Below the pieces are notes generated by a model. It was not told the DNA's origin. It saw only the letters and a program-made list of their open reading frames with translations, and searched no databases. Positions 6,983 through 40,252 of a DNA stretch of 44,627 bases are shown here, in pieces. The stretch's first letter is position 1; every line of letters begins with the position of its first letter. The DNA comes from Bacteroidales bacterium. GTDB taxonomy: Bacteria > Bacteroidota > Bacteroidia > Bacteroidales > Tenuifilaceae. Location of the stretch: the NCBI GenBank assembly GCA_028680705.1, contig JAQUJY010000001.1:1-44627 (forward strand). Direction: 5' to 3'. A program made the translations under genes and the position numbers.

Positions 6983-7000
6983 TTCAATACCAACAAAACT

Positions 7001-7567: not shown

Positions 7568-7596
7568 AATATACTTAAAAGTAAAAATTTATAAGC

Positions 7597-8076: not shown

Positions 8077-8098
8077 CAACAAAAAACTTCCGTTTTAT

Positions 8099-8129: not shown

Positions 8130-8170
8130 CACCCGCTTTACAGCAAGTAATGTAAAGTTATTTGAAATAT

Positions 8171-8242
8171 GGCCCGTTCGTCTAGGGGTTAGGACGCCAG
8201 GTTTTCATCCTGGTAACAGGGGTTCGATTCCCCTACGGGCTA
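8171..8242 (+). tRNA. tRNA-Glu (anticodon TTC)
   Basis: The 72-base sequence folds into a complete cloverleaf. The acceptor stem pairs GGCCCGT with ACGGGCT, the anticodon arm is CCAGG-TTTTCAT-CCTGG with anticodon TTC, and the T arm is AGGGG-TTCGATT-CCCCT. The discriminator base is A, and CCA is not encoded. rpsT begins 29 bases downstream. Confidence 0.97.
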
Positions 8243-8271
8243 CTACATTATTTATCATAATAAATAGCATC

Positions 8272-8526: not shown

Positions 8527-8558
8527 AATATACGTATTCAAAAAGGATAATTGAATTT

Positions 8559-8584
8559 GGCTCGCCCTGCGAGCCTTTTTTTTT
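8559..8584 (+). terminator. Rho-independent terminator after rpsT
   Basis: GGCTCGC (8559-8565) pairs with GCGAGCC (8569-8575) around a three-base loop, followed by nine T residues (8576-8584). Confidence 0.93.
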
Positions 8585-8641
8585 GCTTTTCCGCATCGTA
8601 TTCAATCCGTTTTTGTAACTTCGGTTGTAAACATTACGAAA

Positions 8642-9340
8642 ATGGAACCATCCCCTAAAGCACTTACCATAAAACAATGGGCTCATGACGATAGGCCCAG
8701 AGAAAAGATGATGTCCAAGGGTGCAACTGCCCTAAGCGATGCTGAGTTAGTGGCAATCCTCATTGGTTCTGGCACAACGAATGAAACCGCAGTAAGCATT
8801 GCCCAAAAAGTGCTAGCCGACGCAAAAAACAATCTCAATGAGTTGGGCCGTTTCACCATAAAGGATTTAACCAAAACAAAGGGTATTGGCACTGCAAAAG
8901 CCATTACTATTATGGCTGCACTTGAGCTAGGGCGAAGACGAAAAAACTCTGAGGCAATAAATAGGAAACAGATAACATCAAGCAATGACGTAATCGAACT
9001 GTTTCAATCCTCCCTAGCTGATTTGCCGCATGAGGAGTTTTGGGTACTGCTTTTAAATCGAGCTAATAAAATTATTGAGCGAGTTAAAATTAGCGAAGGT
9101 GGCTACACCGCCACAACGGTAGATGTTAGAAAAATAATGAAAACAGCCCTCGAACATCAAGCCATTGGGTTAATCCTTTGCCACAATCATCCGTCGGGCA
9201 ACCATAATCCAAGCAACGAGGACATCAACATCACTGCCAAAATAAAGCAGGCCGCTAAGACATTAGACATAAGTCTTTTAGATCACGTAATAATAACACA
9301 CGGCAAGTGCTACTCCATGGCAGACAACTCTATGATTTAA
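8642..9340 (+). CDS. radC: RadC-family JAB/MPN-domain protein
   Basis: The 232-residue protein has the RadC layout: an N-terminal helix-hairpin-helix region (about 20-90, with KGATALSDAELVAILIGSG and LTKTKGIGTAKAITIMAALE) and a C-terminal JAB/MPN metalloprotease-like domain. The JAMM motif is intact: H181-N-H183, S191 and D194 within HNHPSGNHNPSNED. RadC was once thought to be a DNA repair protein, but the function is unresolved; the metal motif suggests a hydrolase. It is a stand-alone gene between rpsT and upp, of normal length. Confidence 0.92.
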   Translation: MEPSPKALTIKQWAHDDRPREKMMSKGATALSDAELVAILIGSGTTNETAVSIAQKVLADAKNNLNELGRFTIKDLTKTKGIGTAKAITIMAALELGRRRKNSEAINRKQITSSNDVIELFQSSLADLPHEEFWVLLLNRANKIIERVKISEGGYTATTVDVRKIMKTALEHQAIGLILCHNHPSGNHNPSNEDINITAKIKQAAKTLDISLLDHVIITHGKCYSMADNSMI

Positions 9341-9441
9341 AACTGGTATAGAACATAAGATTTGTTCGCTGATTACAATGGTTGTACGACTAATTATTAG
9401 TACTTTGCACTTAATAAACAAGCACTTTAAACCACAACCTG

Positions 9442-10092
9442 ATGCTAAAAATACTAGGCGAGAAGAACTCAATCCTCAACAAGTTTATCTGCGAATTACG
9501 AAACGTTGAAGTACAAAACGACAGGATGCGCTTTAGGAGGAATCTAGAACGCATTAGTGAAATCTTTGCATACGAGTTAAGCCAACAACTTAACTACTCG
9601 GCAAAACAAATACAAACCCCACTTGGCACTACAGACATCCCTTTGCCAACAGACAAAATTGTTGTAGCCTCCATACTACGTGCAGGGTTACCTATGCATC
9701 AGGGGCTACTCAACTATTTTGATGATGCTGAAAACGCTTTTATTTCTGCATACCGAAAGTATAGCAAAGATGGTTCGTTCAAAATACAGTTCGAACACCT
9801 CTCCTGCCCTAACATCAAGGGAAAAGTACTAATTATAGCTGACCCTATGCTGGCCACGGGTTCATCGATGATATTAGCCTATAAAGCACTACTAGAAAAG
9901 GGAAAGCCAAAGCATACCCATATCGTTTCGATAGTTGCCTCAAAAGAGGGAGTAGAGTATACTCGCCAGAACCTTACGAGCAAAGATGTCACCCTATGGC
10001 TAGGTGCGGTTGACGATGAGCTTACAGTTAAATCGTATATTGTTCCTGGGCTTGGTGATGCTGGCGACTTAGCCTACGGAGGTAAGGAGTAG
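9442..10092 (+). CDS. upp: Uracil phosphoribosyltransferase
   Basis: The 216-residue protein fits uracil phosphoribosyltransferase, which makes UMP from uracil and PRPP (pyrimidine salvage). VASILRAGLPMHQGLLNYF is the segment that helps form the active site, and IIADPMLATGSSMILAYKAL (about residues 131-150) is the PRPP-binding loop. The C-terminus PGLGDAGDLAYGG is the uracil-recognition end characteristic of Upp. Its stop codon (10090-10092) abuts the folK stop (10093-10095) on the opposite strand with no base between. Confidence 0.93.
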   Translation: MLKILGEKNSILNKFICELRNVEVQNDRMRFRRNLERISEIFAYELSQQLNYSAKQIQTPLGTTDIPLPTDKIVVASILRAGLPMHQGLLNYFDDAENAFISAYRKYSKDGSFKIQFEHLSCPNIKGKVLIIADPMLATGSSMILAYKALLEKGKPKHTHIVSIVASKEGVEYTRQNLTSKDVTLWLGAVDDELTVKSYIVPGLGDAGDLAYGGKE

Positions 10093-10605
10093 TTACGCCA
10101 TTACTCTTCTCTTCTCAGCTGATGCATAACGCCACACCTGAGTGCTATCGGGACAACTAGAGAGTAACTCGTTAATAGTTTTACCCAACAATGGGTGCAT
10201 TAATGTGGGTGTAATTTGCGCCAACGGCTTTAGCACAAACATTCGTTCATGGAGCTTGCGATGAGGAACAACTAATGGTGGTAATGTGTAGATGCAATCA
10301 TCGTAGAAAAGCACATCAATATCTACAGTCCGAGCAGAATAATCATCATGGTCTCTTTTCCTACCCAAGTTCTTCTCAATTAGCTGACAAGTATCTAAAA
10401 GGCATAGAGCTTCAAGAGAGGTTTCAACCTCAAGCACCTGATTTAAAAAGTTTGTATCATGGTCGAATCCCCAAGGTTCAGACTCAAAAATATCAGAGCG
10501 CTTTACTACTTTCCCAATCATTTGCTCAATTTGCCTGGCTGTTTTATCAATCAGTTCTTCTCTATTCCCCAAGTTTCCACCTATAATTAAATATACCCTG
10601 TGCAT
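10093..10605 (-). CDS. folK: 2-amino-4-hydroxy-6-hydroxymethyldihydropteridine pyrophosphokinase
   Basis: The 170-residue protein is HPPK, which transfers pyrophosphate from ATP to 6-hydroxymethyl-7,8-dihydropterin in folate synthesis. Family motifs are RVYLIIGGNLGNREELI at the N-terminus, IFESEPWGFD (pterin-binding aromatic segment), KNLGRKRDHDDYSARTVDID and the metal-binding DIDVLFYDD. Length is normal. It is convergent with upp with stops directly abutting. It is divergent from sppA, so the 148 bases between 10606 and 10753 must hold both promoters, although I see no clean consensus. Confidence 0.95.
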   Translation of the reverse strand: MHRVYLIIGGNLGNREELIDKTARQIEQMIGKVVKRSDIFESEPWGFDHDTNFLNQVLEVETSLEALCLLDTCQLIEKNLGRKRDHDDYSARTVDIDVLFYDDCIYTLPPLVVPHRKLHERMFVLKPLAQITPTLMHPLLGKTINELLSSCPDSTQVWRYASAEKRRVMA

Positions 10606-10753
10606 AAATATAATGTATAATGAACATTCGTATTACGGAAAGTTGTAAAGTTTGTGCAAATATTCCAATAATACAACCCATAGCTTAAACTTTTTCATTA
10701 CTTTTATTTCGCATAAAAAACTAGAATCACACACAAAAAAAAAACTGCTGAAT

Positions 10754-12523
10754 ATGAAAGATTTCTTTAAGTACATGTTTGCTACCATTACTGGTATAAT
10801 TATCACTACCATTTTATTGTTCTTACTTTTCTTTGGAATAATTGGAGCAATGGTGGCTAAAACAGACAAAACTGTTGATGTAAAGGACAACTCTTTACTT
10901 ATTATTAAAATCAACCAAGAGATTGTTGACAGAGCATCGAAAAACCCAATGGGCGGTTTTGATTTTATGAGTTTTAAGCCAACTTCTCAACTTGGCTTAT
11001 ACGATATACTTAAAGCCATCGACAATGCTGCTCAGGACGAAAAAATTCGTGGAATTTTTATTGAGACTGAAAGTATCCCCGCTGGTGCAGGAACACTCGA
11101 AGAAATTAGAATGGCCCTTGAAAAGTTTAAGGAGTCGGGCAAGTTTATTATTAGCTATAGCGATGTTTATGGGCAAAAAAGTTATTACCTGTCAAGCGTA
11201 TCAGATAAGATTTTGCTCAATCCTGAGGGAGAAATTGAATGGGTTGGATTGCGCGGAGAAGTTATGTTCTATAAAGATGCACTAAAAAAGTTAGGAATTG
11301 AAGCGCAAATCATTCGTCATGGAAAGTTCAAGTCAGCCATTGAACCCTTTATTCTAGACAAAATGAGCCCCGAAAACAGGGAGCAAACTTTAACCTATAT
11401 GGGTTCTATCTGGAATCATTGGGTTGATGGTATTAGTAAAGCGCGAAATATTCCAGTTGATGAATTAAATAAATTAGCCGACAACCTAACCATTCGTAAT
11501 GCTAAATCGGCTGTAGAATTTGGTCTTATCGATAGCCTGATATATAAAGATCAGGTAATTGACATGCTTAAAGAACTAACCGACACTAAACCTAAAAAGG
11601 ATATTAACTCTGTTACCCTAGCCCAATACATCAAGGTAAAGCCACCGGTAAAACATAAAGGTTTTATAAAGGATAAGATTGCCGTAGTATATGCATCGGG
11701 TTCAATTATAACTGGCGATGGAAACGAGGGTTCGATTGCCTCAGAACGTTTTGGCAGAGCCATTCGCAATGCACGTCGTGATAGCACGGTTAAGGCAATA
11801 GTACTCCGTATCAACTCGGGAGGCGGAAGCGCTCTAGCCTCTGAGGTAATCTGGAGAGAGGTTAAACTGGCCAAAGAGGTAAAACCCGTTATTGTGTCGA
11901 TGGGCGATGTTGCAGCCTCTGGCGGATACTACATTGCCGCACCTGCCGATTACATTTTGGCAAATCCAACAACCATCACTGGTTCAATTGGGGTGTTTGG
12001 AATGATACCTAACTTTAAAGAAGGTATGAACAAGAAATTGGGCATCACGGTTGATGTGGTAAAAACCAACAAAAATGCCGATTTCGGCTCAGTATTTAGA
12101 CCTCTATCTGCTGAAGAGCGCGCTATTTTCCAACTTGGGGTTGAGGAGATTTACTCCACCTTTATCGGTCATGTTGCCGAAGGCCGTAATATCACTGTTG
12201 AGCAGGTTGATGAGATAGGGCAAGGCAGGGTTTGGAGCGGTGTTAACGCAATGGACATAAACCTAATTGATGAATTTGGCGGGATTCAAAGAGCCATTGA
12301 AATTGCTGCCGAAAGAGCTGGACTAGAGAACTACCGTATTACTGAACTGCCTAAGCAAGCTGATCCATTCGAAGCCTTTGTTAAGCAGTTAACTGGCGGT
12401 GCCAAAGCCAATATCCTAAAAAATGAACTTGGCGACAACTACAAGTATATTGAACGCCTTAAGAACATTGCTACTAGTAAGGGCATAATAGCTCGCATAC
12501 CCTACGATATCGAACTTTACTAA
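10754..12523 (+). CDS. sppA: Signal peptide peptidase SppA, 67K type
   Basis: The 589-residue protein (start at MKDFFKYMFATITG) has one N-terminal membrane anchor (about residues 10-35) and two tandem ClpP-like domains, the long SppA form. The Lys/Ser dyad is visible: K193 in HGKFKSAIEP in the first domain and S389 in GDVAASGGYY in the second. SppA degrades cleaved signal peptides in the inner membrane. The frame is open upstream to an ATG at 10652, but the extra 34 residues are polar and precede the membrane anchor, so the later ATG is preferred. A strong terminator follows. Confidence 0.94.
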   Translation: MKDFFKYMFATITGIIITTILLFLLFFGIIGAMVAKTDKTVDVKDNSLLIIKINQEIVDRASKNPMGGFDFMSFKPTSQLGLYDILKAIDNAAQDEKIRGIFIETESIPAGAGTLEEIRMALEKFKESGKFIISYSDVYGQKSYYLSSVSDKILLNPEGEIEWVGLRGEVMFYKDALKKLGIEAQIIRHGKFKSAIEPFILDKMSPENREQTLTYMGSIWNHWVDGISKARNIPVDELNKLADNLTIRNAKSAVEFGLIDSLIYKDQVIDMLKELTDTKPKKDINSVTLAQYIKVKPPVKHKGFIKDKIAVVYASGSIITGDGNEGSIASERFGRAIRNARRDSTVKAIVLRINSGGGSALASEVIWREVKLAKEVKPVIVSMGDVAASGGYYIAAPADYILANPTTITGSIGVFGMIPNFKEGMNKKLGITVDVVKTNKNADFGSVFRPLSAEERAIFQLGVEEIYSTFIGHVAEGRNITVEQVDEIGQGRVWSGVNAMDINLIDEFGGIQRAIEIAAERAGLENYRITELPKQADPFEAFVKQLTGGAKANILKNELGDNYKYIERLKNIATSKGIIARIPYDIELY

Positions 12524-14563: not shown

Positions 14564-17500
14564 CTACCTTAACTTTGTTGCCACAACAACGGTTTTCTTA
14601 TACCGCTTCACATTCCCCTTTAGATCGAAAGCCTCAATAAAAATTACATAGGCACCCATTGATGCCCTTCGTCCTGCATCATCCGCCCCATCCCACTGGA
14701 TGCTTCCCGAGGTACCCAGTAGCATATTTGAACCGATTCGTTTTATTTTCCTACCCCTCGAATCGAAAATCACGATACTGGCAAGGTAACCGCTCTCGGG
14801 CAATTCGTAGTTTATCAGCAGAATATCCTCAAAACCATCGCCATCGGGCGAGAATACCTGATGCGAGAGGCTAAAACTATCGTCACCCTTAATGGCATCG
14901 GTAAACTGAGAGTTTTTTGCTGTTGGAGTTGCAAAACCTGCTGTTTGCGCTGCCGATTGCCAACTCGATTCCTCGTTGCTTGGCAAGTTGGGGTTTAGCC
15001 TCTCCAACGAGATTCCCTTAGCATCGGAGAGCAAAGTGTTATGCATTCCATTATCGTAGTAAAACTCATCAATAATCTCACCAACCTCATTAATAAGTAC
15101 AACATAACCGTTGTCGTTGGGATATGATGGTAGCTTGCTGAGCCACACCATGGCGTTTGGATTTTCGATATAGTAGAATTGGCTCACCAGCGATGGATTT
15201 TCGGTTAGAACAGCATACTCACCGGGCATTAGCAACCAAGCACTATCGGAGGCTGCATAATTCTCGTTAAGCGCCAAAGTTGTTTTGTTCCTGTTGGCAA
15301 TGCGCATTATTTTAAGATTAACTGGTTTATCGGAGTTGTTGAACAGTTCAACAAAGTCCACTCCCCCAGAATAGGGATTAAACAGTATCTCATTAATAAC
15401 AATGTCACCAGCAATTGGGGTTTGGGGTATGGCAATATCTCGACAGCTTTCAACGATGGGGTTTCCAGAGAAGTCGGTAATATCGTCGGTAAAGCATAAG
15501 TCGTATATCTGGCCTAGAGCCATTGCCGAACCAAGCGTAAGCTCAACCCTATTGTACTTTGGACCAGCTGTGGATAGCCAAACCGGATTTCCTATCCCAT
15601 TGCTAAGCATATAGCCCTGTGGTACTGTAATGGATAGGCTATCCATCACCTCAGAGAAAGCTACCGCAATGTGGGTGGCATCTAATACCTCAACCCCAAC
15701 AACTCTGGGCGGAGTAATATCGGGATTGCTTGCCTGCACAGAGTTAACCCTACCAGGCGTTCCGCCTGAGGGATCGTTTGTTGCTATCCAGTTTACGGCA
15801 CCCTCTACCAAATTATCCGTGTCTATTCGCTCAAGTGAGTATCCACCTGCCTTTTTAGTATCATTCCCATACCATTTATCGGAATACTCTACCCACGATA
15901 TTAGGTTTCCGCTATTATCGTAAACTCTCAGAAACATGCCCCCAACCAAAAGGGATGGGAACGATGATACACCTATGGCATTGCCAAACTGGCTCATTGC
16001 AGTCTGCCCACTTGTTCCTGAAAGTATAACGTACCCGTTTGGCTCAATAACACCTTTGGTAATAGTGGCAATATTAGTATTGCCTCTAATCTTCCAGCCT
16101 ACCAGCGAAATGCTCGATGAGGTTCTGTTGTAAAGTTCAATATACTCAACGTTAGGCAAATCGGTTACATCCGATGGGCGTGCCATAATCTCGTTTATCA
16201 CAATACTCCCAAAATTACCAATGGCCCCCATACCAATCTGTATGCTATCATTTACAACCAAATTACCAGATAATGAGGTAATACCCTTAGCATAAAGCAC
16301 CAAATCGTCGGCGGGCAGTTCCTCAGTTCGCAATGAGAATTTAAATGGATTACCATCGTGGGCATACGAGGTTAGTATCGAATAAACCTTGCCGCTACTA
16401 TCCTTTATGCTATAATTTGATGGGGTTAGCGCATCATCAGCATTAACTGCCGACGAGAATGTTACGCTAACTGATGAACGGCTAAGTAAATTTGCGCTTT
16501 GAATTATGGGTGGATATTGAACTGCACAAACACTTAGGTTATCGAGCCAAAACTCACCCGCCCTTGTGCTGGTGTACTTAAACACAGGACCACAGGTTGA
16601 TGATGTGCTAACACTTGTATCAGACGCTCGGCCTGCCAGTTGGTAATGAGTATCCTCCGTATTCGCCTTATACCATAACGACCATTCGCCGTTGGGCGTT
16701 CGTGTAACGCGAATGGCAATTGTTTCGGACTCGTTCCAATCGAAGTTGGATTTTACCAACACTTGGGCTCCAGAATTCTTATCGATGCGCCATAGCGTAA
16801 GCAAATCGGATGAACCCAAAAGGTTAACTCCCACCGCATAGCCATTGTATTCGCCCAAAGAGATAGATTCACTATCGGAGGCTAAAACAAACCAGAATGC
16901 ATTATCGCCCGTTGGATCCCACGCACCATTGCGCATGGCAAACGACCACTCCCTGGGGCTATCGCCAAGATTTTCTATCGCTAAATCAATGGGAAGAGTA
17001 CTCTTTCCCGATTCTCCTGATAGGGCATGTTTTAACGAACCACTCCCATCAATTGGTGAAACACTTGACACATACCAGTGGTCTGTTACAGGGAATGTTA
17101 CAGGATATCCATTCTCAAAATCCTCATCTATTGCACACAACAACTGCCCTCCGCTCCAGATTGGTTCAGAGTATGCTCTCACCAACCCGCCAATTTCCGA
17201 TTCGACCCAAAACCTGTACTTACCCTCAGCATCAAGCACAATATCATCCCAGGTTGACACTCCATTTATTAGGGTTAATGCTTGTGTACTTACAGAATAG
17301 TTAACCGGTCCATAGTCTAAGCCCAAGGTAACCTCTCCAATGGCATCCTTATCGATACTTCCAAATTTGTCAACCGCTGCCACATCGAGCATAATTGGCT
17401 GAGATTGGGTTGTCATAAAAGTTTGACCAACGAATGCAATGTTTGTGGCCTCTACATTTACAGTAAACACAGGGCCAACAACGCCCACACCAAATGTTGG

Positions 17501-20266
17501 GGCAAAGGCTGTTCCCAGATTAGCGGTTTGCCAACCATGCCCCGAGGCTGGAACGTATAAACAAAGGGTTGAGGCATCCAGCTGTCCCCCCTCCTGTAGG
17601 TAAACTTTAAGGTTATACTCATTCGTCTCGTCATCAAGAACGGTAACATCTCCAACCCCAATATCAAGGGTAATAATCTCATCGGTTATTGATACTGATG
17701 AGATTGGTACCTCACCCTCACCATTCCATAGCGATACGCCTTTTATCAATCTAGCTAACGGAAAATCAGTGGACAGTCCAAACGATTTAAAAACCATTCG
17801 GGTGATATAGGTAGGGAGTCCGTCGGTAGTACCCAAATCAGAAACGCCAAAACGATAAACCTCAATTGCCTGTTCGGGTAAAGTGGTGAGCGTACTGATC
17901 ACACCATCCTCTAATGTGACACTTGGTTGCACAAGTGTTGATGTAACATCGGAGCAGTATATTAATGAAGAAATAGCATCGTTTAAAGTAGATGAAGAGG
18001 CTAAAAGCGTGAAGGGTTCTGCTAAATTATACGATAAGCCAGTCCATGTTGCTTTTCCGTTAGATATTGTAGCTTCTGGGCTAGGAATAGTTAACGCTCC
18101 TCCACCGCTATTCTTCGATAGCGTAATAGTACCAACAGCATTCACATCGATACTACCCCCAGCATCAACTGCTGAAACCTCAACATCAAACTCATCACCC
18201 AACCCAACCCGCGATGGTACTGATGAAAACTTAAGCGTTGTGGCTGCCACATCAATAGGAAATGAATTGGAAAGGATTTGCTCTGCAAAGGACGGGGCGA
18301 AAGTAGAACCCTGTGGGTATGCTAAAAATCCATGATCGGTTTGGTCAACCATAAACCCTAGAATAGAACCATCGGACAGCCCGCTTGGTTTCAGATAAAC
18401 TGATAATGAAACTTCAACCGATTCGCCATCGGGAACCACAATAGCACCCAATGGTATGGGAATAGAGATAGATGCGGTTAGTATGTGCGGGCTACCCACT
18501 GAAATCACTTGATTATTAACCCTAACCACTACGCCGGCAATATGGGTACTAAACGATGCCATGTTGCTACCTGAGGGTCGCTTAATAAACAGCTGACGAA
18601 CAAAGGTTGGTTGTCCATCGTTTTGGCCATCATCAGAAATTTTAAATTTAAATACCTCTTTCGATAGCCCTGGGAGTATTACTGTTGATGAGAATAGTTC
18701 GGCTTCAGGTTGAGTACTGGGTGCAACTACAACTGTTGTTGGGTCATTTATCACCTCAATCTCGTTGCCATAAGCAGCTTGTAGGCCCAACGCAGAAGCC
18801 ATGAGCGAAAAGTTATCGGTGCCGGTATACGTAATATTCGACCATGCAATAACCCCATCAACAGCAGTGCTTACCAACGACCCCACTGGTAACAGGTTAC
18901 CCTCACCACTATTTAGAGCAAGGGTAACATTAGCTTCATTATAGGTTGTGGCCAGATTTCCGCTAATATCGGATGCATGAGCAACAATGCCAAAGGACTG
19001 GTTTAGCGACAACTGGGTAGGATAATCTATAAATGATAAGTGAGTAGGTATAATCTGTATGGTAAATACATTGGAGAGAACAATAGTGGGGAATTCATCA
19101 GCAAAAGCTGAACCCTGGAAATGCGATTCCCAGCCATGATTCTCATCATCAACCTGTAATTGCAGGGTTGCTCCATCCACAATACTTTCGGGCTTTAGGT
19201 AAACTGAAAGGGTAAACTCCTCAGAGTTTCCATCATCAACAACCATCTGCCCTTGATTTAGGTAAATCTCTATTGAACTACTAGTTACCGAAACACTCTC
19301 AGTGGGAATTTCGCCACCAACACCGCTAAGAATTACACCTCCAATGGTTTCGACTAATCCTGCAGCATTTGCTCCATCAACCCTGCTAAACTTTAGCTTA
19401 GTTACGTCGGTGGAGAGCCCATCGGAAGTAGCCTGATCGGTTACCGTAAAGCGAAAAACATCAACCGCATCGGAGTCGTTAGTAGCCAGTGAGCTAATTA
19501 TTCCTCCAGCAATTTGCGTACTTGGCTGGTTAACAACTGCATCGTAATCGTTGGTATTTATGGGTTGGTAGGTAAACTGCACATCATCGACAGTAAGTTT
19601 ACTCGCATTTAAAGATGAATACTTATAATACACACCAAAATGCCCTCCAAATGAATGAGTAACATCTACAACCGAACCCAAATTATCCATACCAGAATAA
19701 GAACCTGATGTTGATGCTTTTACGGTAAAGGTACCATCTGCTAAACGCTCAACCTCAACAGCGCCTACCGACGAAAGTGTAGAGCCTATCTGAGTTTCCC
19801 AGTTAATAGAGGTAGTTAAAATTGAAACAAAAGAACCATTGTCCACTCTGTAAAGCCGAAGCAAATCGTCAGAACCAGATAGGTTAACGCCAACTAAATA
19901 ACCATTTGGGCTTTCACTCGAAATCATACCGGTAGCATCTTTATTGGAAGTTAGGAAAACACCCCAATGATTTCCCGAAGTGGGATTAACCCTATGCCGT
20001 AGTTTAAAACGCCATGTAATATCACCCTCATTCCCGTTCCAAACAGGGAGTTCAACCGAAATTCTATCGGTTAATCCACTGCTACTTTGAGCATGATTAA
20101 GCGACTGGGCACCCTCAATTGCATTGGAGGTAGAGGTTTCCCACAATCCTTCGGCAGACTGTGTCCATGCGCTTAAATCGCCATCCTCAAAGTCGTAATT
20201 AATGGTTTGCGAAATCGCCAAAAAAGGCAATAGAATAAGAAGTAGAGCCAAAACATTATTTTTCAT
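14564..20266 (-). CDS. Giant secreted multidomain protein with two lamin-tail domains and gliding-type C-terminal domain
   Basis: The 1900-residue protein begins with a signal peptide (MKNNVLALLLILLPFLAISQ). Residues about 22-230 and 1045-1250 look like two related jelly-roll or concanavalin-like domains; both contain GYxVGVNLxGSxDLLxLxR. Between them are three tandem ~265-residue units (about 245-510, 510-780, 780-1035), each with VYLKP/VYLQEG and a HGW/HGF segment then an Ig-like part ending in GxG-type strands. Then come an Ig-like segment, a lamin-tail domain (about 1352-1505, starting SIVINEIMARP), another Ig-like segment, a second lamin-tail domain (about 1620-1780, starting DIVINEILFNP), and a C-terminal domain (about 1795-1900) with FSPDGDGFEDILLINYELPE and IFDSRGRKIKRI, resembling the gliding-motility/FlgD-like C-terminal domains tied to type IX secretion. 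Surface or extracellular location is inferred. Function is unknown. Confidence 0.85.
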   Translation of the reverse strand: MKNNVLALLLILLPFLAISQTINYDFEDGDLSAWTQSAEGLWETSTSNAIEGAQSLNHAQSSSGLTDRISVELPVWNGNEGDITWRFKLRHRVNPTSGNHWGVFLTSNKDATGMISSESPNGYLVGVNLSGSDDLLRLYRVDNGSFVSILTTSINWETQIGSTLSSVGAVEVERLADGTFTVKASTSGSYSGMDNLGSVVDVTHSFGGHFGVYYKYSSLNASKLTVDDVQFTYQPINTNDYDAVVNQPSTQIAGGIISSLATNDSDAVDVFRFTVTDQATSDGLSTDVTKLKFSRVDGANAAGLVETIGGVILSGVGGEIPTESVSVTSSSIEIYLNQGQMVVDDGNSEEFTLSVYLKPESIVDGATLQLQVDDENHGWESHFQGSAFADEFPTIVLSNVFTIQIIPTHLSFIDYPTQLSLNQSFGIVAHASDISGNLATTYNEANVTLALNSGEGNLLPVGSLVSTAVDGVIAWSNITYTGTDNFSLMASALGLQAAYGNEIEVINDPTTVVVAPSTQPEAELFSSTVILPGLSKEVFKFKISDDGQNDGQPTFVRQLFIKRPSGSNMASFSTHIAGVVVRVNNQVISVGSPHILTASISIPIPLGAIVVPDGESVEVSLSVYLKPSGLSDGSILGFMVDQTDHGFLAYPQGSTFAPSFAEQILSNSFPIDVAATTLKFSSVPSRVGLGDEFDVEVSAVDAGGSIDVNAVGTITLSKNSGGGALTIPSPEATISNGKATWTGLSYNLAEPFTLLASSSTLNDAISSLIYCSDVTSTLVQPSVTLEDGVISTLTTLPEQAIEVYRFGVSDLGTTDGLPTYITRMVFKSFGLSTDFPLARLIKGVSLWNGEGEVPISSVSITDEIITLDIGVGDVTVLDDETNEYNLKVYLQEGGQLDASTLCLYVPASGHGWQTANLGTAFAPTFGVGVVGPVFTVNVEATNIAFVGQTFMTTQSQPIMLDVAAVDKFGSIDKDAIGEVTLGLDYGPVNYSVSTQALTLINGVSTWDDIVLDAEGKYRFWVESEIGGLVRAYSEPIWSGGQLLCAIDEDFENGYPVTFPVTDHWYVSSVSPIDGSGSLKHALSGESGKSTLPIDLAIENLGDSPREWSFAMRNGAWDPTGDNAFWFVLASDSESISLGEYNGYAVGVNLLGSSDLLTLWRIDKNSGAQVLVKSNFDWNESETIAIRVTRTPNGEWSLWYKANTEDTHYQLAGRASDTSVSTSSTCGPVFKYTSTRAGEFWLDNLSVCAVQYPPIIQSANLLSRSSVSVTFSSAVNADDALTPSNYSIKDSSGKVYSILTSYAHDGNPFKFSLRTEELPADDLVLYAKGITSLSGNLVVNDSIQIGMGAIGNFGSIVINEIMARPSDVTDLPNVEYIELYNRTSSSISLVGWKIRGNTNIATITKGVIEPNGYVILSGTSGQTAMSQFGNAIGVSSFPSLLVGGMFLRVYDNSGNLISWVEYSDKWYGNDTKKAGGYSLERIDTDNLVEGAVNWIATNDPSGGTPGRVNSVQASNPDITPPRVVGVEVLDATHIAVAFSEVMDSLSITVPQGYMLSNGIGNPVWLSTAGPKYNRVELTLGSAMALGQIYDLCFTDDITDFSGNPIVESCRDIAIPQTPIAGDIVINEILFNPYSGGVDFVELFNNSDKPVNLKIMRIANRNKTTLALNENYAASDSAWLLMPGEYAVLTENPSLVSQFYYIENPNAMVWLSKLPSYPNDNGYVVLINEVGEIIDEFYYDNGMHNTLLSDAKGISLERLNPNLPSNEESSWQSAAQTAGFATPTAKNSQFTDAIKGDDSFSLSHQVFSPDGDGFEDILLINYELPESGYLASIVIFDSRGRKIKRIGSNMLLGTSGSIQWDGADDAGRRASMGAYVIFIEAFDLKGNVKRYKKTVVVATKLR

Positions 20267-31245: not shown

Positions 31246-33189
31246 ATGAGTTATCTTGAATTCGATAAGAGTGAGTTGGTTAATCTAGCCTACTCATTAA
31301 ACAGAGAGATTCTTAGCGCCAACAGGGCAGGTGGTTATTTTAGCACAACTATTGTGCTATGCAATACCCGAAAGTATCATGGGCTTATGGTGTTACCACT
31401 CGACCATTTCGATGGTGAGAATCACGTTTTACTCTCAACTGTTGATGAAACTATAATTCAGCACGGCAAAGAATTCAATTTAGGGATTCATCGTTACCCT
31501 GGTATTTATGATCCTAGGGGGCACAAATATATTGTTGACTTTGAGTATGAGCCAACCCCAAAAATTACATATCATGTAGGAGGTGTGATTTTTGAAAAAG
31601 AGTTGCTTTTTGTGCATAACGAAGAACAGTTTATGATACGATACACCCTAAAGGATGCCAATAGCCCAACTAAGTTGAGAATAAAACCTTTTCTGGCCTT
31701 TAGGAATGCTCATCAACTTTCCAAATCGAACCTATACGCCAACAAGCGTTACAGAGATATCCCAAATGGGGTTAGGTATAAATTATATCAAGGATTCCCA
31801 TACCTTCACATGCAGCTGAATAGAGGGAACGAATTTGTGGCTGTACCCGACTGGTACTACAACATTGAGTACAAGGAGGAGGTTAAACGAGGCTACGAAG
31901 GGCATGAAGATTTGTTTGTACCTGGATTTTTTGAGATTCCCATAAAAAAAGGCGAGAGCATTATCTTCTCGGCAGCAACAAGCGAGCAAAATCCAATGTC
32001 GCTTACCCGAAAATTTAACTCAGAGATAGCACGACGCCCAAAAAAGGACAACCTTGAAAATTGCCTTCGCAATGCAGCTCAACAATTTATTGTAAAACGT
32101 GATAAAAAAACCGAGTTTATTGCAGGTTATCCGTGGCTTGGTGATCGAGCACGCGACTCATTTATTGCCCTGCCAGGTCTGACCCTTTGTACTGGCGACG
32201 ACAAACTCTGTAAAGATGTTTTGGACACAATGGCAAAAGAATTCAGGGGTGCTCACATCACAAACATGAAGTATGACCCATCATCGGCCTCCAGTTCCGT
32301 TGATGCTCCATTGTGGTTTTTTTGGGTAATACAGATGTACACACAAAAACAAAAAACTACGGATGAGGTATGGGAGGCATACGGAACAAAAATGAAAAAC
32401 ATCCTTAACGCATACCGTAATGGTGACCTCCAACACGGCATAAAGGTTCATGAAAACGGTTTGGTTTGGGCTGGAGAAAAAGGAGTGTCATTAACCTGGA
32501 TGGATGCTGTTGTTAATGGCTTGCCGGTTACACCTCGAACCGGCTATCAGGTTGAGACCAACGCACTTTGGTACAATGCCATAATGTTTACCATAAAGTT
32601 AGCGAAGGAGCACAAGGACACTAAATTTGTAAAAGACTGGGAATCATTAGCAAACCAAATCCCCGAATCGTTCACTAAAATATTTTGGTATGAACCAAAA
32701 CATCATTTGGCTGATTTTGTTAATCATGATGGACAGAACATCTTTGTTAGGCCAAATCAAATTTTTGCCGTATCGCTGCCATATAGCCCCCTAACCGATG
32801 AGATGAAGAAAGGAGTTCTGGACGTTGTGTACAAAGAGCTATATACTCCGAAAGGTTTAAGAACCCTATCGCCAAAGAACCCCAATTATATAGGGCTATA
32901 CGAGGGCGATCAGGCTTCGCGCGATAGCGCATATCACCAGGGAACTGCATGGCCTTGGCTGCTAGGACACTTTATTGAAGCAAACTATAGGTTGCATGGA
33001 AGTTCAGCGAACACTTTGGCCAAAGAGGTATTAGACTCCTTCTGCGAAGACATGGCCAATCACGGAATATGCGGCATTGCTGAGATTTACGATGGAGACC
33101 CTCCACACAAACCGAATGGATGTATCTCGCAGGCCTGGAGCGTTGCCGAGATTATTAGACTAAAAAGAATGTATGAAGACAATAAATAG
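31246..33189 (+). CDS. Glycogen debranching enzyme (amylo-alpha-1,6-glucosidase type)
   Basis: The 647-residue protein has the bacterial/archaeal GDE layout: an N-terminal beta-sandwich domain (about 15-230, with SANRAGGYFSTTIVLCNTRK, whose NTRKYHG is characteristic) and a C-terminal (alpha/alpha)6 barrel (about 275-640). The barrel carries AGYPWLGDRARDSFIALPGL (about 292-311), GVSLTWMDAVVNG, NALWYNA and YHQGTAWPWLLG. It removes alpha-1,6 branches from glycogen, giving glucose. It is the first gene of a four-gene glycogen cluster, 25 bases before the GT4 gene. No convincing TAnnTTTG promoter is seen in the 222 bases upstream. Confidence 0.93.
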   Translation: MSYLEFDKSELVNLAYSLNREILSANRAGGYFSTTIVLCNTRKYHGLMVLPLDHFDGENHVLLSTVDETIIQHGKEFNLGIHRYPGIYDPRGHKYIVDFEYEPTPKITYHVGGVIFEKELLFVHNEEQFMIRYTLKDANSPTKLRIKPFLAFRNAHQLSKSNLYANKRYRDIPNGVRYKLYQGFPYLHMQLNRGNEFVAVPDWYYNIEYKEEVKRGYEGHEDLFVPGFFEIPIKKGESIIFSAATSEQNPMSLTRKFNSEIARRPKKDNLENCLRNAAQQFIVKRDKKTEFIAGYPWLGDRARDSFIALPGLTLCTGDDKLCKDVLDTMAKEFRGAHITNMKYDPSSASSSVDAPLWFFWVIQMYTQKQKTTDEVWEAYGTKMKNILNAYRNGDLQHGIKVHENGLVWAGEKGVSLTWMDAVVNGLPVTPRTGYQVETNALWYNAIMFTIKLAKEHKDTKFVKDWESLANQIPESFTKIFWYEPKHHLADFVNHDGQNIFVRPNQIFAVSLPYSPLTDEMKKGVLDVVYKELYTPKGLRTLSPKNPNYIGLYEGDQASRDSAYHQGTAWPWLLGHFIEANYRLHGSSANTLAKEVLDSFCEDMANHGICGIAEIYDGDPPHKPNGCISQAWSVAEIIRLKRMYEDNK

Positions 33190-33214: not shown

Positions 33215-34501
33215 ATGAGAGTACTAATGTTTGGTTGGGAATTCCCTCCGCACATATCGGGAGGTTTAGGAACAGCGTGCTTTGGTCTTACCCGAGGATT
33301 GGCAAAGCACAACGTAAATGTAGCCTTTGTTGTGCCTAAAGCTTTTGGCGACGAAGATCAGTCGGCTGTTAGAATTGTACCCGCTGAGGATGTGGACGTA
33401 TGCAACATGTCGGTTGAACTTGAGGAATTCTGGAAAAAAATAAGTTACCTTGAGGTTAGCTCTAACCTAATTCCTTACGTTGGACCCGAAGAGTTTGCAC
33501 GGCTTATATCTGAAACAGAAGCAGATGGAACACAAGAAAACAGTACAACATCAAGCCATAAATTCAAGTTTACGGGAAAGTACGGGAAAGACCTCCTGAA
33601 GGAGGTTTCGCGATATGCACTAATTGCAGCAAGCATTGCAGCAAAAGAGGAATTTGATGTTATTCATGCACACGACTGGCTAACCTATCTTGCAGGTATT
33701 ACTGCAAAAATGGTTTCGGGCAAACCTCTGGTAGTTCATATCCATGCAACCGAATTCGACCGGAGCGGCGAGAATGTTAATCAAGCCGTTTACGAGATTG
33801 AAAAACAAGGCATGCAAATGGCCGATAAGATAATAGCGGTAAGCCACTTAACCCGAAATATCGTTATAACCCGATATGGTATACCTGAGGATAAAGTAGT
33901 TACCATTCATAATGCCGTTGATTTTGCTGGCAATGGTTACGGTCATAGCGAAACAAAAGGAGTACCCGAAAAAGTGGTAACTTTTCTTGGGCGAGTTACC
34001 TTTCAAAAAGGTCCAGACTACTTTATTGAAGCTGCCAATAAGGTTATTAAACGGAACTCCAACGTGCGATTTGTGATGGCAGGCAGTGGGGATATGCTCA
34101 ACCGGATGATAAGGCGAGCAGCCCAACTCGGAATAGCCAATAAATTTCACTTTACAGGCTTCCTTGAGGGTCCCGAAGTTCATTCCATGTTTGCTCAAAG
34201 TGATGTGTACGTAATGCCATCGGTATCGGAGCCTTTCGGCATCAGCCCACTTGAGGCAATGCAAAGCAACGTACCCGTAATAATATCTAAACAATCGGGA
34301 GTTGCAGAGGTGCTAAAACATGCCCTTAAGGTAGATTTTTGGGACATTGATGCAATGGCCGACTCAATTAACGGACTCCTTAAGTACGATGCCCTATCGA
34401 GGTACTTTAAGCAACATGGGCAAAGCGAAGTAAATAGCCTTAAATGGGAAAATGCTGCTTACGAGGTAAAAGAAGTGTATAAATCGCTGCTTGGGATTTA
34501 A
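33215..34501 (+). CDS. GT4-family glycosyltransferase (glycogen-synthase-like)
   Basis: The 428-residue protein is a GT-B glycosyltransferase. The N-terminal domain opens with MRVLMFGWEFPPHISGGLG, the GGLG loop of glycogen/starch synthases, and has FDVIHAHDWLTYLAG. The C-terminal GT4 domain has VTFLGRVTFQKGPDYFIEAA and the E-x7-E motif SEPFGISPLEAM (about residue 338). Members in Bacteroidota sit between debranching enzyme and GH57 genes, as here, and are annotated as glycosyltransferases of alpha-glucan metabolism. Donor is not determined by sequence; ADP- or UDP-glucose are both possible. It is 25 bases after the debranching gene and 49 before the GH57 gene, so probably in one operon. Confidence 0.88.
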   Translation: MRVLMFGWEFPPHISGGLGTACFGLTRGLAKHNVNVAFVVPKAFGDEDQSAVRIVPAEDVDVCNMSVELEEFWKKISYLEVSSNLIPYVGPEEFARLISETEADGTQENSTTSSHKFKFTGKYGKDLLKEVSRYALIAASIAAKEEFDVIHAHDWLTYLAGITAKMVSGKPLVVHIHATEFDRSGENVNQAVYEIEKQGMQMADKIIAVSHLTRNIVITRYGIPEDKVVTIHNAVDFAGNGYGHSETKGVPEKVVTFLGRVTFQKGPDYFIEAANKVIKRNSNVRFVMAGSGDMLNRMIRRAAQLGIANKFHFTGFLEGPEVHSMFAQSDVYVMPSVSEPFGISPLEAMQSNVPVIISKQSGVAEVLKHALKVDFWDIDAMADSINGLLKYDALSRYFKQHGQSEVNSLKWENAAYEVKEVYKSLLGI

Positions 34502-34550: not shown

Positions 34551-35969
34551 ATGAAAACGATCTGCTTCTATTTTCAGGTTCACCAACCCTTTAGGCTTCG
34601 TCATTACCGGTTTTTCGACATTGGGAAAAATCATAACTACTTTGACGAATTCGCAAATCGCTCAATAATGCGTAAAGTAGCCGAAAAATGCTACCTCCCA
34701 ACCAACAACCTGATGCTTGCACTTATAAACGAGTTTGGGAGCAGATTTAAAATTTCATATTCCATTTCTGGGACTGCACTCGATCAATTTGAACTTTACG
34801 CCCCCGATGTACTCGATTCCTTTAAGCGACTTGCCGAAACGGGATGCGTTGAGTTTTTAGCAGAGACCTACTCACACTCACTCTCGGCACTTAAATGCCC
34901 TGGTGAATTTGAGAAGCAGGTTAAAGCCCACGCAAACAAAATTGAGCAGCTCTTTGGTCAAAAACCTACCACGTTTAGAAATACTGAGCTCATCTACTCC
35001 GACGAAATTGGCGCAATGGTAGCAAATTTAGGATACAAAGCTATGCTTACCGAGGGCGCAAAACATATTTTGGGATGGAAAAGTTCAAATTACCTATATA
35101 CCAACGCCATTAATCCTAAGTTAAAGCTATTGCTTAAAAACTTTCAGCTTAGCGACGATATTGCATTCCGATTCTCTAATCGTGGGTGGGAAGAGTGGCC
35201 ACTCACAACAGAAAAGTATGTGGATTGGCTAAATTCAATCGACCAAAAGGATGAAATTATCAATCTGTTTATGGACTACGAAACCTTTGGTGAACATCAA
35301 TGGGCAGAAACAGGAATCTTTGAGTTTTTGAAAGCACTGCCCCAACGAGTTTTCAGCAACTCCAATTTTGAATTTCTTACTCCCTCCGAGGCAGCCAAGA
35401 AGCATCAGCCTATTGCTAATCTACATGTTCCCTACCCCATAAGCTGGGCCGATGAGGAACGCGACCTAACCGCTTGGCTTGGCAACGAAATCCAGGACGA
35501 TGCATTCGATAATCTATATTCGTTAATAGAGAAGATAAACAACATAAACGATCCAGATATACTGCGCGACTGGCGTTATTTGCAAACAAGTGATCACTTT
35601 TACTACATGTGCACCAAGTGGTTTAGCGATGGTGATGTTCATAAGTATTTTAATCCATACGATTCTCCATACGATGCATTTATAACCTTTATGAACGTTT
35701 TTAGCGATTTTAAGCTTAGGGTTGATACTGTTAACTCTATAATCCCCAAGAGCGAAAATGAGAAACCTATGCCTGAGGAGGTTGACATTATGATTGAGGA
35801 GTACGAGAAAAAACTTAAGGAACTCAAACAACTACAACAAAAAGCCAAGTCCAAAACAGTTTCTAAGCAAAAGGGTACATCAAAAGAAAAACCAAAGCCA
35901 AAAGTTAAACCAATGGCCAAAAAGGCAGCTCAAACAAAAGCCTCTTCAAAAACAAAGGACAAGAATTAA
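34551..35969 (+). CDS. GH57 alpha-glucan enzyme (alpha-amylase-like) with Lys-rich C-terminal tail
   Basis: The 472-residue protein begins KTICFYFQVHQPFRLRHYRF, the GH57 first conserved region with HQP. Catalytic candidates are E146 in TFRNTELIYSD (nucleophile) and D242 in LFMDYETFGEHQWAE (acid/base). There is no signal peptide, so it acts in the cytoplasm. GH57 covers amylases, 4-alpha-glucanotransferases and branching enzymes; since no GlgB is in the cluster, a branching role is possible, but the length (catalytic part about 400 residues) fits the Bacteroidota alpha-amylase annotation better. The last ~55 residues (from about 418) are a low-complexity Lys/Thr/Ser/Ala tail (for example KEKPKPKVKPMAKKAAQTK), absent from ordinary GH57 enzymes. 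Confidence 0.9.
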   Translation: MKTICFYFQVHQPFRLRHYRFFDIGKNHNYFDEFANRSIMRKVAEKCYLPTNNLMLALINEFGSRFKISYSISGTALDQFELYAPDVLDSFKRLAETGCVEFLAETYSHSLSALKCPGEFEKQVKAHANKIEQLFGQKPTTFRNTELIYSDEIGAMVANLGYKAMLTEGAKHILGWKSSNYLYTNAINPKLKLLLKNFQLSDDIAFRFSNRGWEEWPLTTEKYVDWLNSIDQKDEIINLFMDYETFGEHQWAETGIFEFLKALPQRVFSNSNFEFLTPSEAAKKHQPIANLHVPYPISWADEERDLTAWLGNEIQDDAFDNLYSLIEKINNINDPDILRDWRYLQTSDHFYYMCTKWFSDGDVHKYFNPYDSPYDAFITFMNVFSDFKLRVDTVNSIIPKSENEKPMPEEVDIMIEEYEKKLKELKQLQQKAKSKTVSKQKGTSKEKPKPKVKPMAKKAAQTKASSKTKDKN

Positions 35970-35998: not shown

Positions 35999-38900
35999 AT
36001 GGACACTATGAACGAGAAATTACTGAGACCCGATTATCTTTTTGAGGTAAGCTGGGAAATATGCAATAAAATTGGGGGAATCCATACGGTTATCTCAACC
36101 AAGGCACTTACGTTGGTAAAGGAGTACAAAAATAACTTAATCTTTATTGGCCCCGATGTTGTGCGGGATACAACGGGTAATCCTGAGTTTATTGAGGATT
36201 CACAACTTTTCGCTTCATGGCGAAACAAAGCAGCCGAAGAAGGACTAAGAGTTCGGGTTGGACGCTGGAATATTGAGGGCAAACCAGTTGTTATTATCAT
36301 TGACTTTACGCCCTTCTTCTCAAAAAAGGATGAGATACTCAAAGAGTTCTGGGAGGAGTATAAACTTGATTCAATTACAGGTCAATGGGACTACGTGGAA
36401 CCTGCACTATTTGGATATGCTGCTGGTAAAGTAATTGAGAGTTTTGCACGTTTCCAACTTACCCATAGACATCGGATTGTTGCTCAATTTCACGAGTGGA
36501 TGACAGGCATTGGCCTGCTTTACTTAAAGAAATACTCACCCTTAATTGGTAACATTTTCACTACCCACGCAACCGTTATGGGAAGAAGCATTGCTGGAAA
36601 CAATATTCCACTTTACAGCAAACTCGAAAAATATAATGCCGAACACAAAGCCATAGAACTTAACGTAGTTTCGAAGCAATCACTCGAAAAAGTCTCAGCC
36701 ATTGAGTCCGATTGCTTCACAACGGTTAGTGACATTACCGCAAAAGAGTGTAAGCAGTTTCACGGTAAAGAGGTTGATATTGTTACCCCAAATGGTTTTG
36801 AGAACAGCATCGTACCAGAAGGGGATGAGTTTAGGCTAAGGCGAATTGAGGCAAAAGTAAAATTCTACGAGGTTGCCGAAGCACTTCTTGCTCATGACGT
36901 AGCTAAGGATTCAATGATTGTTGGCATAAGCGGCAGGTATGAATTTAAGAACAAGGGCATTGATGTTTTTATTGATGCGCTTGCAAAGCTGAACCAATGC
37001 CCCGACCTAAAACGTGAGGTACTTGCGTTTATCCTAATCCCTGGGGCACACCACGGACCACGAAAAGATGTTTTTAAAAATCTACTTGAAAAGGATAATG
37101 AGAATGTTGTTGTGCTAAGCAATACTCACTTAACCCACTACCTCAACGATCCTGATAATGATCCTATTCTGAATAGAATAAAATCTTCTGGTCTGACCAA
37201 CTCAGCAAACGATAAGGTTAAAATATTTTTTGTTCCCTGTTACCTCAATGGTAACGATGGTATATTTAACCTACCATATTGGGATTTGCTAATTGGTATG
37301 GATACTTCCGTTTTTCCTTCGTACTATGAACCATGGGGTTACACCCCACTCGAGAGCCTTGCCTTTCATGTGCCAACTATAACCACAAGTCTTGCTGGAT
37401 TCGGACTGTGGGTTAAAGAACATTACCCTAACAATCATCCGGGCATTAAGATAATTGATAGAACCGACGATAATGACCAGCATATTGTTGAAGAAATTTC
37501 ATCAACAATATGTAACTATTCTACACTATCGAACAACGACCAAGACACATACCGCCAAAATGCTGTAGAGGTTTCACGTATTGCTCTTTGGGAAAACTTG
37601 ATAGATTACTACAAAAAGGCTTACAGTATAGCCCTTCAAAAGGTTGAGCAAAGAACTCAAAAGTTCATGGATATTGATAGAGAGGAGGAACTGCCAACGG
37701 TTGAAAAAAAATATCACCCCAATAAACCAAATTGGGTAAGGCTGCTTATCCAAAAAAGTATTCCCGATAAATTATCTGCACTCGATGAGATCTCAAAGAA
37801 TCTTTGGTGGTGCTGGAATCCAGATGCAATTGAACTTTTCCAATCCATCGATACTCAGCTATGGATCCAATGTGAGCAAAACCCCATTCGTTTTCTTGAT
37901 AAAATTACACTGAAACAGTTTCAAAAACTTGAAAAGGATGAAGCCTTTATAGAAAAACTGAGCAGGGTTCACAAGCATTTTACCGAATACATGAAACAGA
38001 AAATCGGTAGAAAGTGTGCTAAAATAGCATACTTCAGCATGGAGTTTGGGCTACATACAAGTCTAAAACTTTACTCGGGCGGGTTAGGTGTACTGGCAGG
38101 TGATTATCTAAAAGAAGCATCGGACAAAAATGTTCCACTTGTCGCCATAGGCCTTTTCTATCGCTATGGCTATTTCACTCAGCAGCTCTCATCGGCTGGT
38201 CAGCAAATTGCCTCATACGATCAACAAAACTTCACACAAACCCAAGCCAGACCCGTTAGGCACATTAATGGAAAGTGGAAAACAGTTAGCATTGCACTCC
38301 CTGGACGAAATGTAAATGCCCGTATATGGCGAGTTGATGTTGGGCGAACAGAATTATATTTATTGGATACCGATTTTGAGGACAATCAACCACAGGATAG
38401 AGCAATTACCCATCACCTATACGGAGGCAACTGGGAGGATAGGTTTAAGCAAGAAATGGTACTTGGCATTGGAGGCGTTAGAGCCCTTAATGAACTTGGC
38501 ATAAATCAGGATATTTTCCACCTTAATGAAGGGCATGCAGCATTTGCTGGTCTGGAAAGGCTTAATCTTACCATTGTTGAGGAAAAATGTTCTTTCGATG
38601 AAGCACTCGAACTGGTTAGGGCTAGTAGCCTATTTACAACACACACACCTGTACCTGCAGGTCACGATTCGTTCCCTGAGGACATGCTCCGAACCTACTT
38701 GGCTCATTATCCCGAGAAGTTGGGCATTACATGGGAGCAATTTATGGATTTGGGCAAACTCAATCCAGGCGATGAAACTGAGCACTTCTCAATGAGCTAC
38801 CTCGCTGCAAACCTATCGCAAGAGGTTAATGGGGTAAGCATGCTACATGGATCGGTTAGCCAACACATGTTCGCAAATCTTTGGCCTGGATATTTCCCTA

Positions 38901-40252
38901 GCGAGATACATATTGGCTATGTTACTAACGGTGTTCATTACCCCACTTGGGCATCACCTGAGATAAGAGACCTATTAGAAACTACCTCGAATGAGCACAG
39001 CTTTGACAATACACCCGATTGGAATAATATCTATAACATTCCTGATGCGAGGCTCTGGAACATCAGAAATCTACACCGCAAAAAGCTAATTGACTACATC
39101 CGATCTCGGCTTGTTGATCCACAGATTATGAAGTATGAAACTCCAACTCAGGTTGTTGAGATACAAGAGAATATTGGTGACAATGTACTTACCATAGGTT
39201 TTGCCCGACGATTTGCTACGTACAAAAGAGCTAATCTACTGATGCGCGACCTAAATAGATTAAGCAAAATTGTAAATAATACGGATAGGCCTGTGCAGTT
39301 CATCTTTGCTGGTAAAGCACATCCAAACGACAAAGCAGGACAAGACCTTATCCGAAGAATAATTGAGGTAAGTAAAAGACCCGAGTTTACCGGAAAATTC
39401 ATGTTCCTTCAGAATTACGATATGGAACTGGCAAAAAAAATGGTGCAAGGGGTTGATGTTTGGCTAAATACACCTACACGCCCCTTAGAGGCATCGGGCA
39501 CCAGCGGAATGAAATCGGTGATGAACGGTGGGCTGCACTTCAGCGTTCTCGATGGTTGGTGGGTTGAGGGTTACTTACCCAATGCCGGATGGGCACTCCC
39601 AGAAGAGAGAACCTATGAACAGCAAGAATTCCAGGATGAACTAGACGCTGAAATGATTTACACCATTATTGAGAACGAAATTGTTCCTCCTTTCTATAAT
39701 TACAACGAAGAGGGTGTTCCTATCGAATGGATGTCATTCATAAAAAAATCTATTGCACAGGTAGCATCTGTATTTACAACTACCCGCATGATGGAAGATT
39801 ATCAGGATAGATTCTACCATAAACTTTATCTGCGCTCCAACAGGCTTAGGCAAGAGGATCTTGAACTTACACAAACAATTGCTGCATGGAAACGAAAGGT
39901 TCCCCGAAACTGGGATAGCCTTGAAATTATTACTGCTGAGCAGTTCGACACTTTGCGACAAGACATTGTGCTTGGTAAGGAGTATAACTCCGAAGTTGTA
40001 CTCGATCTTGGTAAACTCTCTCCTGATGATGTTGGAGTAGAACTAATTATTGCCGAACTTGCTGAAAATGGCGATACTCGCATTAAGCACACACAAGAGT
40101 TCGACCTTGAAAATGTTGAAGGACAAAGAGCAACCTATAGACTTTCGTTCATTCCCAATGAACCTGGGGTGTACGATTCTGGAATTAGAATTTATGCAAA
40201 GCATAACGAACTCCCCCACCGTATGGATTTTGCTCTTGTACGCTGGATTTAA
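35999..40252 (+). CDS. Fused GT3 glycogen synthase - alpha-glucan phosphorylase
   Basis: The 1417-residue chain joins two opposing enzymes. Residues about 1-560 are a GT3 glycogen synthase of eukaryote type: FEVSWEICNKIGGIHTVIST, QFHEWMTGIGLLYL and FPSYYEPWGYTPLESLAFHV, with the E-x7-E catalytic pair E444 and E452. GT3 enzymes use UDP-glucose. Residues about 575-690 are a DUF3417-type domain (ISKNLWWCWNPDAIELF). Residues about 690-1300 are an alpha-glucan phosphorylase: KIAYFSMEFGLHTSLKLYSG, the HLNEGHAAFAGLERL segment and the pyridoxal-phosphate lysine K1172 in ASGTSGMKSVMNGGLH. The last ~100 residues are a beta-rich domain. Both active sites look intact, with no frameshift at the junction. 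It is the last gene of the cluster, 29 bases after the GH57 gene, and is followed by a terminator. Confidence 0.92.
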   Translation: MDTMNEKLLRPDYLFEVSWEICNKIGGIHTVISTKALTLVKEYKNNLIFIGPDVVRDTTGNPEFIEDSQLFASWRNKAAEEGLRVRVGRWNIEGKPVVIIIDFTPFFSKKDEILKEFWEEYKLDSITGQWDYVEPALFGYAAGKVIESFARFQLTHRHRIVAQFHEWMTGIGLLYLKKYSPLIGNIFTTHATVMGRSIAGNNIPLYSKLEKYNAEHKAIELNVVSKQSLEKVSAIESDCFTTVSDITAKECKQFHGKEVDIVTPNGFENSIVPEGDEFRLRRIEAKVKFYEVAEALLAHDVAKDSMIVGISGRYEFKNKGIDVFIDALAKLNQCPDLKREVLAFILIPGAHHGPRKDVFKNLLEKDNENVVVLSNTHLTHYLNDPDNDPILNRIKSSGLTNSANDKVKIFFVPCYLNGNDGIFNLPYWDLLIGMDTSVFPSYYEPWGYTPLESLAFHVPTITTSLAGFGLWVKEHYPNNHPGIKIIDRTDDNDQHIVEEISSTICNYSTLSNNDQDTYRQNAVEVSRIALWENLIDYYKKAYSIALQKVEQRTQKFMDIDREEELPTVEKKYHPNKPNWVRLLIQKSIPDKLSALDEISKNLWWCWNPDAIELFQSIDTQLWIQCEQNPIRFLDKITLKQFQKLEKDEAFIEKLSRVHKHFTEYMKQKIGRKCAKIAYFSMEFGLHTSLKLYSGGLGVLAGDYLKEASDKNVPLVAIGLFYRYGYFTQQLSSAGQQIASYDQQNFTQTQARPVRHINGKWKTVSIALPGRNVNARIWRVDVGRTELYLLDTDFEDNQPQDRAITHHLYGGNWEDRFKQEMVLGIGGVRALNELGINQDIFHLNEGHAAFAGLERLNLTIVEEKCSFDEALELVRASSLFTTHTPVPAGHDSFPEDMLRTYLAHYPEKLGITWEQFMDLGKLNPGDETEHFSMSYLAANLSQEVNGVSMLHGSVSQHMFANLWPGYFPSEIHIGYVTNGVHYPTWASPEIRDLLETTSNEHSFDNTPDWNNIYNIPDARLWNIRNLHRKKLIDYIRSRLVDPQIMKYETPTQVVEIQENIGDNVLTIGFARRFATYKRANLLMRDLNRLSKIVNNTDRPVQFIFAGKAHPNDKAGQDLIRRIIEVSKRPEFTGKFMFLQNYDMELAKKMVQGVDVWLNTPTRPLEASGTSGMKSVMNGGLHFSVLDGWWVEGYLPNAGWALPEERTYEQQEFQDELDAEMIYTIIENEIVPPFYNYNEEGVPIEWMSFIKKSIAQVASVFTTTRMMEDYQDRFYHKLYLRSNRLRQEDLELTQTIAAWKRKVPRNWDSLEIITAEQFDTLRQDIVLGKEYNSEVVLDLGKLSPDDVGVELIIAELAENGDTRIKHTQEFDLENVEGQRATYRLSFIPNEPGVYDSGIRIYAKHNELPHRMDFALVRWI

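Follow-up and report, generated by a model that had tools for sequence, protein, structure and literature searches.

Textbook accounts of glycogen metabolism assign synthesis and phosphorolysis to separate, oppositely regulated enzymes. Glycogen enzymes that share a single polypeptide have been described in Chlamydiae, where TreS is fused to Mak and GlgA to GlgB (PMC7935935); in the GlgA-GlgB protein of Waddlia, the branching half appears to be non-functional (PMC7935935). These proteins resemble the one reported here, a fusion of a GT3 glycogen synthase to a GT35 phosphorylase, in carrying two glycogen-pathway enzymes per chain, but the two steps that they combine point the same way, whereas the GT3-GT35 protein joins synthesis with breakdown. 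Neither a description nor an assay of such a fusion was found in the openly readable literature, and CAZy or InterPro may list the architecture. The component families are known; their presence on one chain is a new combination, which is widespread, probably ancestral in origin, and later split.

The window, by which we mean the whole 44,627-nucleotide stretch of DNA that was analyzed, comes from a Bacteroidales genome of the family Tenuifilaceae that is 97.8% complete and assembled in 162 contigs. An ORF on the forward strand (35999..40252) starts with ATG and encodes 1,417 amino acids with no internal stop; a single ORF is also seen in relatives. The GT3 half spans residues ~10 to 556 (36026..37666) and was identified by the Pfam profile Glycogen_syn (PF05693; 331 bits against a curated cut-off of 27, in two stretches, the best being residues 16 to 349), by alignment to the human and yeast glycogen synthases, and by a structure match. 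It is followed by a predicted disordered linker, residues 557 to 582 (37667..37744), and by DUF3417, residues 588 to 689 (37760..38065; PF11897, 116 bits), which forms the N-terminal domain of the phosphorylase half. The GT35 phosphorylase and its C-terminal region (38024..40249) were assigned by the NCBIfam model TIGR02094 (839 bits against a cut-off of 191.7, residues 676 to 1275), by Phosphorylase PF00343 (best stretch, residues 837 to 1190), and by alignment to the Segatella copri enzyme. Both the synthase-phosphorylase make-up of the 1,417-residue chain and the GT3 rather than GlgA type of its synthase, as claimed in the initial annotation, are thus borne out. Apart from the fusion ORF, no second GT3 or GT35 over the cut-off was found in the source genome, so that in this genome the fusion does replace separate genes.

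The GT3 half resembles human GYS1 and yeast Gsy2 in its fold, its E-x7-E pair, and its donor-site Arg and Lys; it differs from them in having a shorter insert between residues 351 and 379, an unconserved glucose-6-phosphate (G6P) arginine cluster, and an attached phosphorylase. The GT35 half, including DUF3417, is 52% identical (Foldseek) to a Segatella copri protein deposited as glycogen phosphorylase (9l6i, 20yr), aligned over residues 573 to 1417, and the two superpose with an rmsd of 1.9 over ~605 residues. Unlike the fusion, the Segatella enzyme is a stand-alone chain of 852 residues without a GT3; its size fits the split clade described below. An AlphaFold2 model of residues 1 to 1200, computed with 44 fused sequences as input (pLDDT 85, pTM 0.73), agrees with these assignments: residues 7 to 552 match human GYS1 (8cvz; Z 39.2, rmsd 3.4 over 539 residues), and residues 581 to 1191 match the Segatella copri phosphorylase (Z 47.1 with 20yr and 41.6 with 9l6i).

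Both active sites are preserved almost everywhere, members from other phyla included, as judged from alignments. E444 (37328-37330) and E452 (37352-37354) fall on E510 and E518 of human GYS1, the established E-x7-E pair of GT3, in an alignment that is ungapped from query residue 379 (human 445); R313 and K319 align with the human donor-site Arg and Lys. Among the order's sequences, E444, R313, and K319 are each kept in 96 of 97 and E452 in all 97. The N-terminal half therefore combines the family profile, the E-x7-E pair, and the donor-site residues of CAZy family GT3. In the C-terminal half, which passes the TIGR02094 cut-off and carries the GT35 pyridoxal-phosphate (PLP) lysine motif, K1172 (39512-39514) lies within EASGTSGxK and is invariant in 98 of 98 Bacteroidales relatives, as are all the GT35 signature residues checked. 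The pattern was unchanged in a larger sequence set, from whose residue table one locus represented by a wrong ORF was left out. The positions initially annotated as catalytic hold up, and neither loss of essential residues nor a half that is always inactive, the two outcomes named as counting against a bifunctional chain, was seen: nearly all sequences keep their catalytic residues, in both halves. Of the six arginines in the G6P-binding cluster of eukaryotic glycogen synthase, one (R519) is kept in the fusion, and at the cluster columns Arg or Lys occurs in 15 to 67% of relatives; eukaryotic G6P-type control is thus unlikely.

Three carbohydrate-active genes precede the fusion on the same strand. 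The first encodes a GH133 glycogen debranching enzyme with GDE_N and GDE_C domains (31246..33189; PF06202, PF12439), the second a GT4 glycosyltransferase (33215..34501; PF00534/PF13439) that is weakly GlgA-Coryne-like (TIGR02149, 140.6 bits, below cut-off), and the third an alpha-amylase-like GH57 protein (34551..35969; PF03065). Of the 59 fused loci whose flanks were long enough, 37 have GH133-GT4-GH57 adjoining the fusion, and the whole cluster recurs in two metagenome-assembled genomes (MAGs) labelled Deltaproteobacteria and Planctomycetota. The same three families are clustered in the archaeon Picrophilus torridus according to the accessible text of a review (PMC11046441), which reports a GH57 amylase and no classical branching enzyme there, and in which no GT3-GT35 fusion is described. 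Branching GH57 enzymes bear the fingerprints HxHLP and ELF(Y)GHW (PMC11206854); the GH57 of the window carries HQPFR and ETFGEH, not these. The source genome holds no CBM48 domain, hence no CBM48 branching enzyme, and no TIGR01515 branching enzyme over the cut-off. Two weak TIGR01515 matches were set aside, since, judging by the translations, they appear to be GH13 enzymes that carry a signal-like segment at the N terminus. The same review asks whether the branching enzyme that is missing there could be a GH57 amylase of this kind (PMC11046441), and the cluster, with its amylase-type GH57 in such a genome, is a candidate for a similar case. Elsewhere in the window, a 1,900-residue protein on the reverse strand (14564-20266) has two lamin-tail (LTD) domain matches and is otherwise without a Pfam match.

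The GlgC-GlgA pathway was not recognizable in the source genome, where the best GlgC match scored 32 bits against a cut-off of 424.9 and the ORFs behind the weak matches resemble RmlA and a MurU-like nucleotidyltransferase. Prevotella bryantii lacks glgC and makes glycogen via a UDP-glucose-dependent glycogen synthase (PMC7935935, PMC4432691). By analogy with that organism, UDP-glucose is most likely the donor of the GT3 half; the absence of GlgC is circumstantial.

To place the fusion within the order, whose members live in guts and sediments, we surveyed about one genome per Bacteroidales family and recovered loci for 101 families: 77 were fused, 19 were split into a separate GT3 (~550 amino acids) and GT35 (~850 amino acids), and 5 had GT35 only, one of the last holding a distant paralogue type (39%). 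A set of 80 named loci from GTDB genomes comprised 58 fused, 13 split, and 9 GT35-only. The fused form is present in the named strains Dysgonomonas sp. HGC4, Labilibacter sediminis CG51, and Chitinophaga rupis DSM 21039 and in Alistipes MAGs, and the split form in Phocaeicola oris. Distant fused homologues, at 36 to 45% identity, occur in C. rupis and in MAGs of other phyla, those labelled Deltaproteobacteria, Syntrophales, and Planctomycetota being at 36 to 38%. In a phylum-wide sample, GT3 proteins over the cut-off outside Bacteroidales were of a longer stand-alone form of about 600 to 670 amino acids, and the fusion is therefore uncommon beyond Bacteroidales. Two loci merit separate mention. 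In C. rupis, the translations place the fusion and a GH133 among UspA-like stress proteins, a DegP-like protease, a membrane metalloprotease, and a PfkB-type kinase, which suggests a stress island. In another locus (L207 of genome G330, 5514-11150), the frame of the fusion is open upstream, giving 1,878 amino acids and overlapping GH57 in another frame; this is probably a mechanical open frame.

The split pairs (Phocaeicola oris and Prevotella-like MAGs) have the same two proteins in the identical order, with the genes 1 to 168 bp apart in 18 of 20 genomes, but these are separate genes that lie away from GH133-GT4-GH57. The GT35 tree groups the split proteins in one clade (support, 100) nested inside the fused ones. 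A tree of the concatenated complete proteins, rooted with the fused proteins of other phyla, again nested the split clade, with the fused protein of genome G324 as its sister (96), and the LepA species tree nested the split genomes with the same sister (100/97). A single clade of the order's fused proteins was rejected by the AU test (p 0.0025). A topology that joins the split clade to the outgroup from other phyla was not rejected (p 0.085); that outgroup is itself fused, however, so fission is still the shorter history. The GT3-only tree, rooted with long-form GT3, put fused and split proteins on two sides of the root. Because this outgroup is remote, the fused proteins of other phyla and the LepA species tree were used as well; given the disagreement, the direction from fusion to fission is well supported yet unproven. 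On this phylogenetic evidence the fusion is probably ancestral to Bacteroidales, and the two-gene form of 19 families looks like the product of one gene fission in a fused ancestor. A recent, lineage-specific fusion is ruled out by the order survey together with the trees.

Taken as a whole, we consider it likely that the protein comprises two working enzymes on a tethered chain. The N-terminal retaining GT3 would use a nucleotide-sugar, most likely UDP-glucose, to lengthen an alpha-1,4-glucan, and the C-terminal PLP-dependent phosphorylase would take chain-end glucose off as glucose-1-phosphate. A disordered linker of ~25 residues would tether the two, setting a 1:1 ratio and holding both enzymes close to one glucan, and the fusion with the neighboring GH133, GT4, and GH57 may form a compact glycogen module. 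Net direction would probably follow substrate levels, nucleotide-glucose against phosphate, rather than a G6P switch of the eukaryotic kind. The putative history that belongs to this reading is an ancestral fusion in the order, one fission that gave the two-gene form, and repeated loss or inactivation of the GT3 half. The simplest reading is that of a tether, with substrate levels driving the direction.

The linker bears on how much the covalent connection matters. Residues 557 to 582 have a pLDDT below 50, and sequence identity in the linker (residues 551 to 578) is 18%, against 54% in the GT3 core and 59% in the GT35 core; the spacing from W531 to W579 is nevertheless held to 46 to 51 amino acids in 77 fused relatives. 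A linker of set length that is unconserved and disordered argues for a tether and not for a built-in shared glucan channel. The absence of sequence conservation would also be expected if co-expressed neighbors had been joined by chance long ago, with one chain having no effect on glycogen metabolism, and the entire split clade does without the covalent link, its genes lying close together. This neutral origin is a real possibility, though we think it clearly the less probable one: the link has been kept in 77 of the 101 families and in MAGs of other phyla, linker length is constrained, and just one clean fission was seen. Tethering of two active enzymes remains our preferred account of these observations.

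Two further proposals give the pairing a more specific purpose. In one, which we regard as unlikely, the protein would be a dedicated turnover machine in which both enzymes act together on the same chains without reciprocal control, setting chain length or cycling glycogen, with the direction of the cycle following nucleotide-glucose and phosphate levels alone. In the other, less likely again, the halves would be physically coupled so that glucan passes between the sites, and this would set its chain length or cycle glycogen on purpose. In favor of such coupling, the covalent link and the length of the linker have both been conserved for a long time, but the linker is disordered, the packing of the domains in the model is uncertain at a pTM of 0.73, and separate genes suffice for the split clade. 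The same three points speak against the shared glucan channel, or switch, that the initial annotation had raised, the linker being unconserved as well.

The two halves have fared differently in evolution. In genome G326 the GT3 half has K444 and E319, and in locus L285 it has D444, R319, and C196; G327 and L329 lack the C-terminal half of GT3 although the frame is still open, which leaves a 1,153-residue fusion in which a GT3 remnant sits on an intact phosphorylase. Four sampled families hold solely a GT35 of the fusion lineage, by four separate losses on the GT35 tree, and in three of these GT35 occupies the fusion's place after GH133-GT4-GH57. Such clusters, with GT35 alone in place of the fusion, were noted at ten loci in several Bacteroidales MAGs. 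No degeneration or loss of the GT35 half was found within the set examined, which, with the repeated death, deletion, or loss of GT3, marks the GT3 half as the dispensable one. These cases would fit a GT3 half that serves the phosphorylase chiefly as a glucan-binding or regulatory module and is a synthase no longer. As a general account we find this improbable, since nearly all sequences, those of other phyla included, retain the catalytic and donor-site residues, and the fusion's GT3 is the sole GT3 of the source genome.

That a sequencing, assembly, or frameshift error merged two genes, which would accord with a source assembly in 162 contigs and with the adjacency of the two genes in related lineages, can be discounted almost entirely: 24 of 27 source-family genomes, two of them single-contig assemblies (G605 and G695), carry a full-length fused ORF of equal length and 65 to 96% identity, which excludes a sequencing or assembly join, and matching ORFs occur in many independent assemblies, isolates among them.

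With both sites intact and the known allosteric arginine cluster missing, the question of futile cycling becomes directly testable, and natural fused, split, and GT3-less versions are available for comparison. A large bacterial order inherits the two enzymes as one chain, with its sites intact and without the eukaryotic allosteric arginine cluster, and the evidence suggests that the two genes of Prevotella- and Phocaeicola-type gut bacteria are a secondary split.
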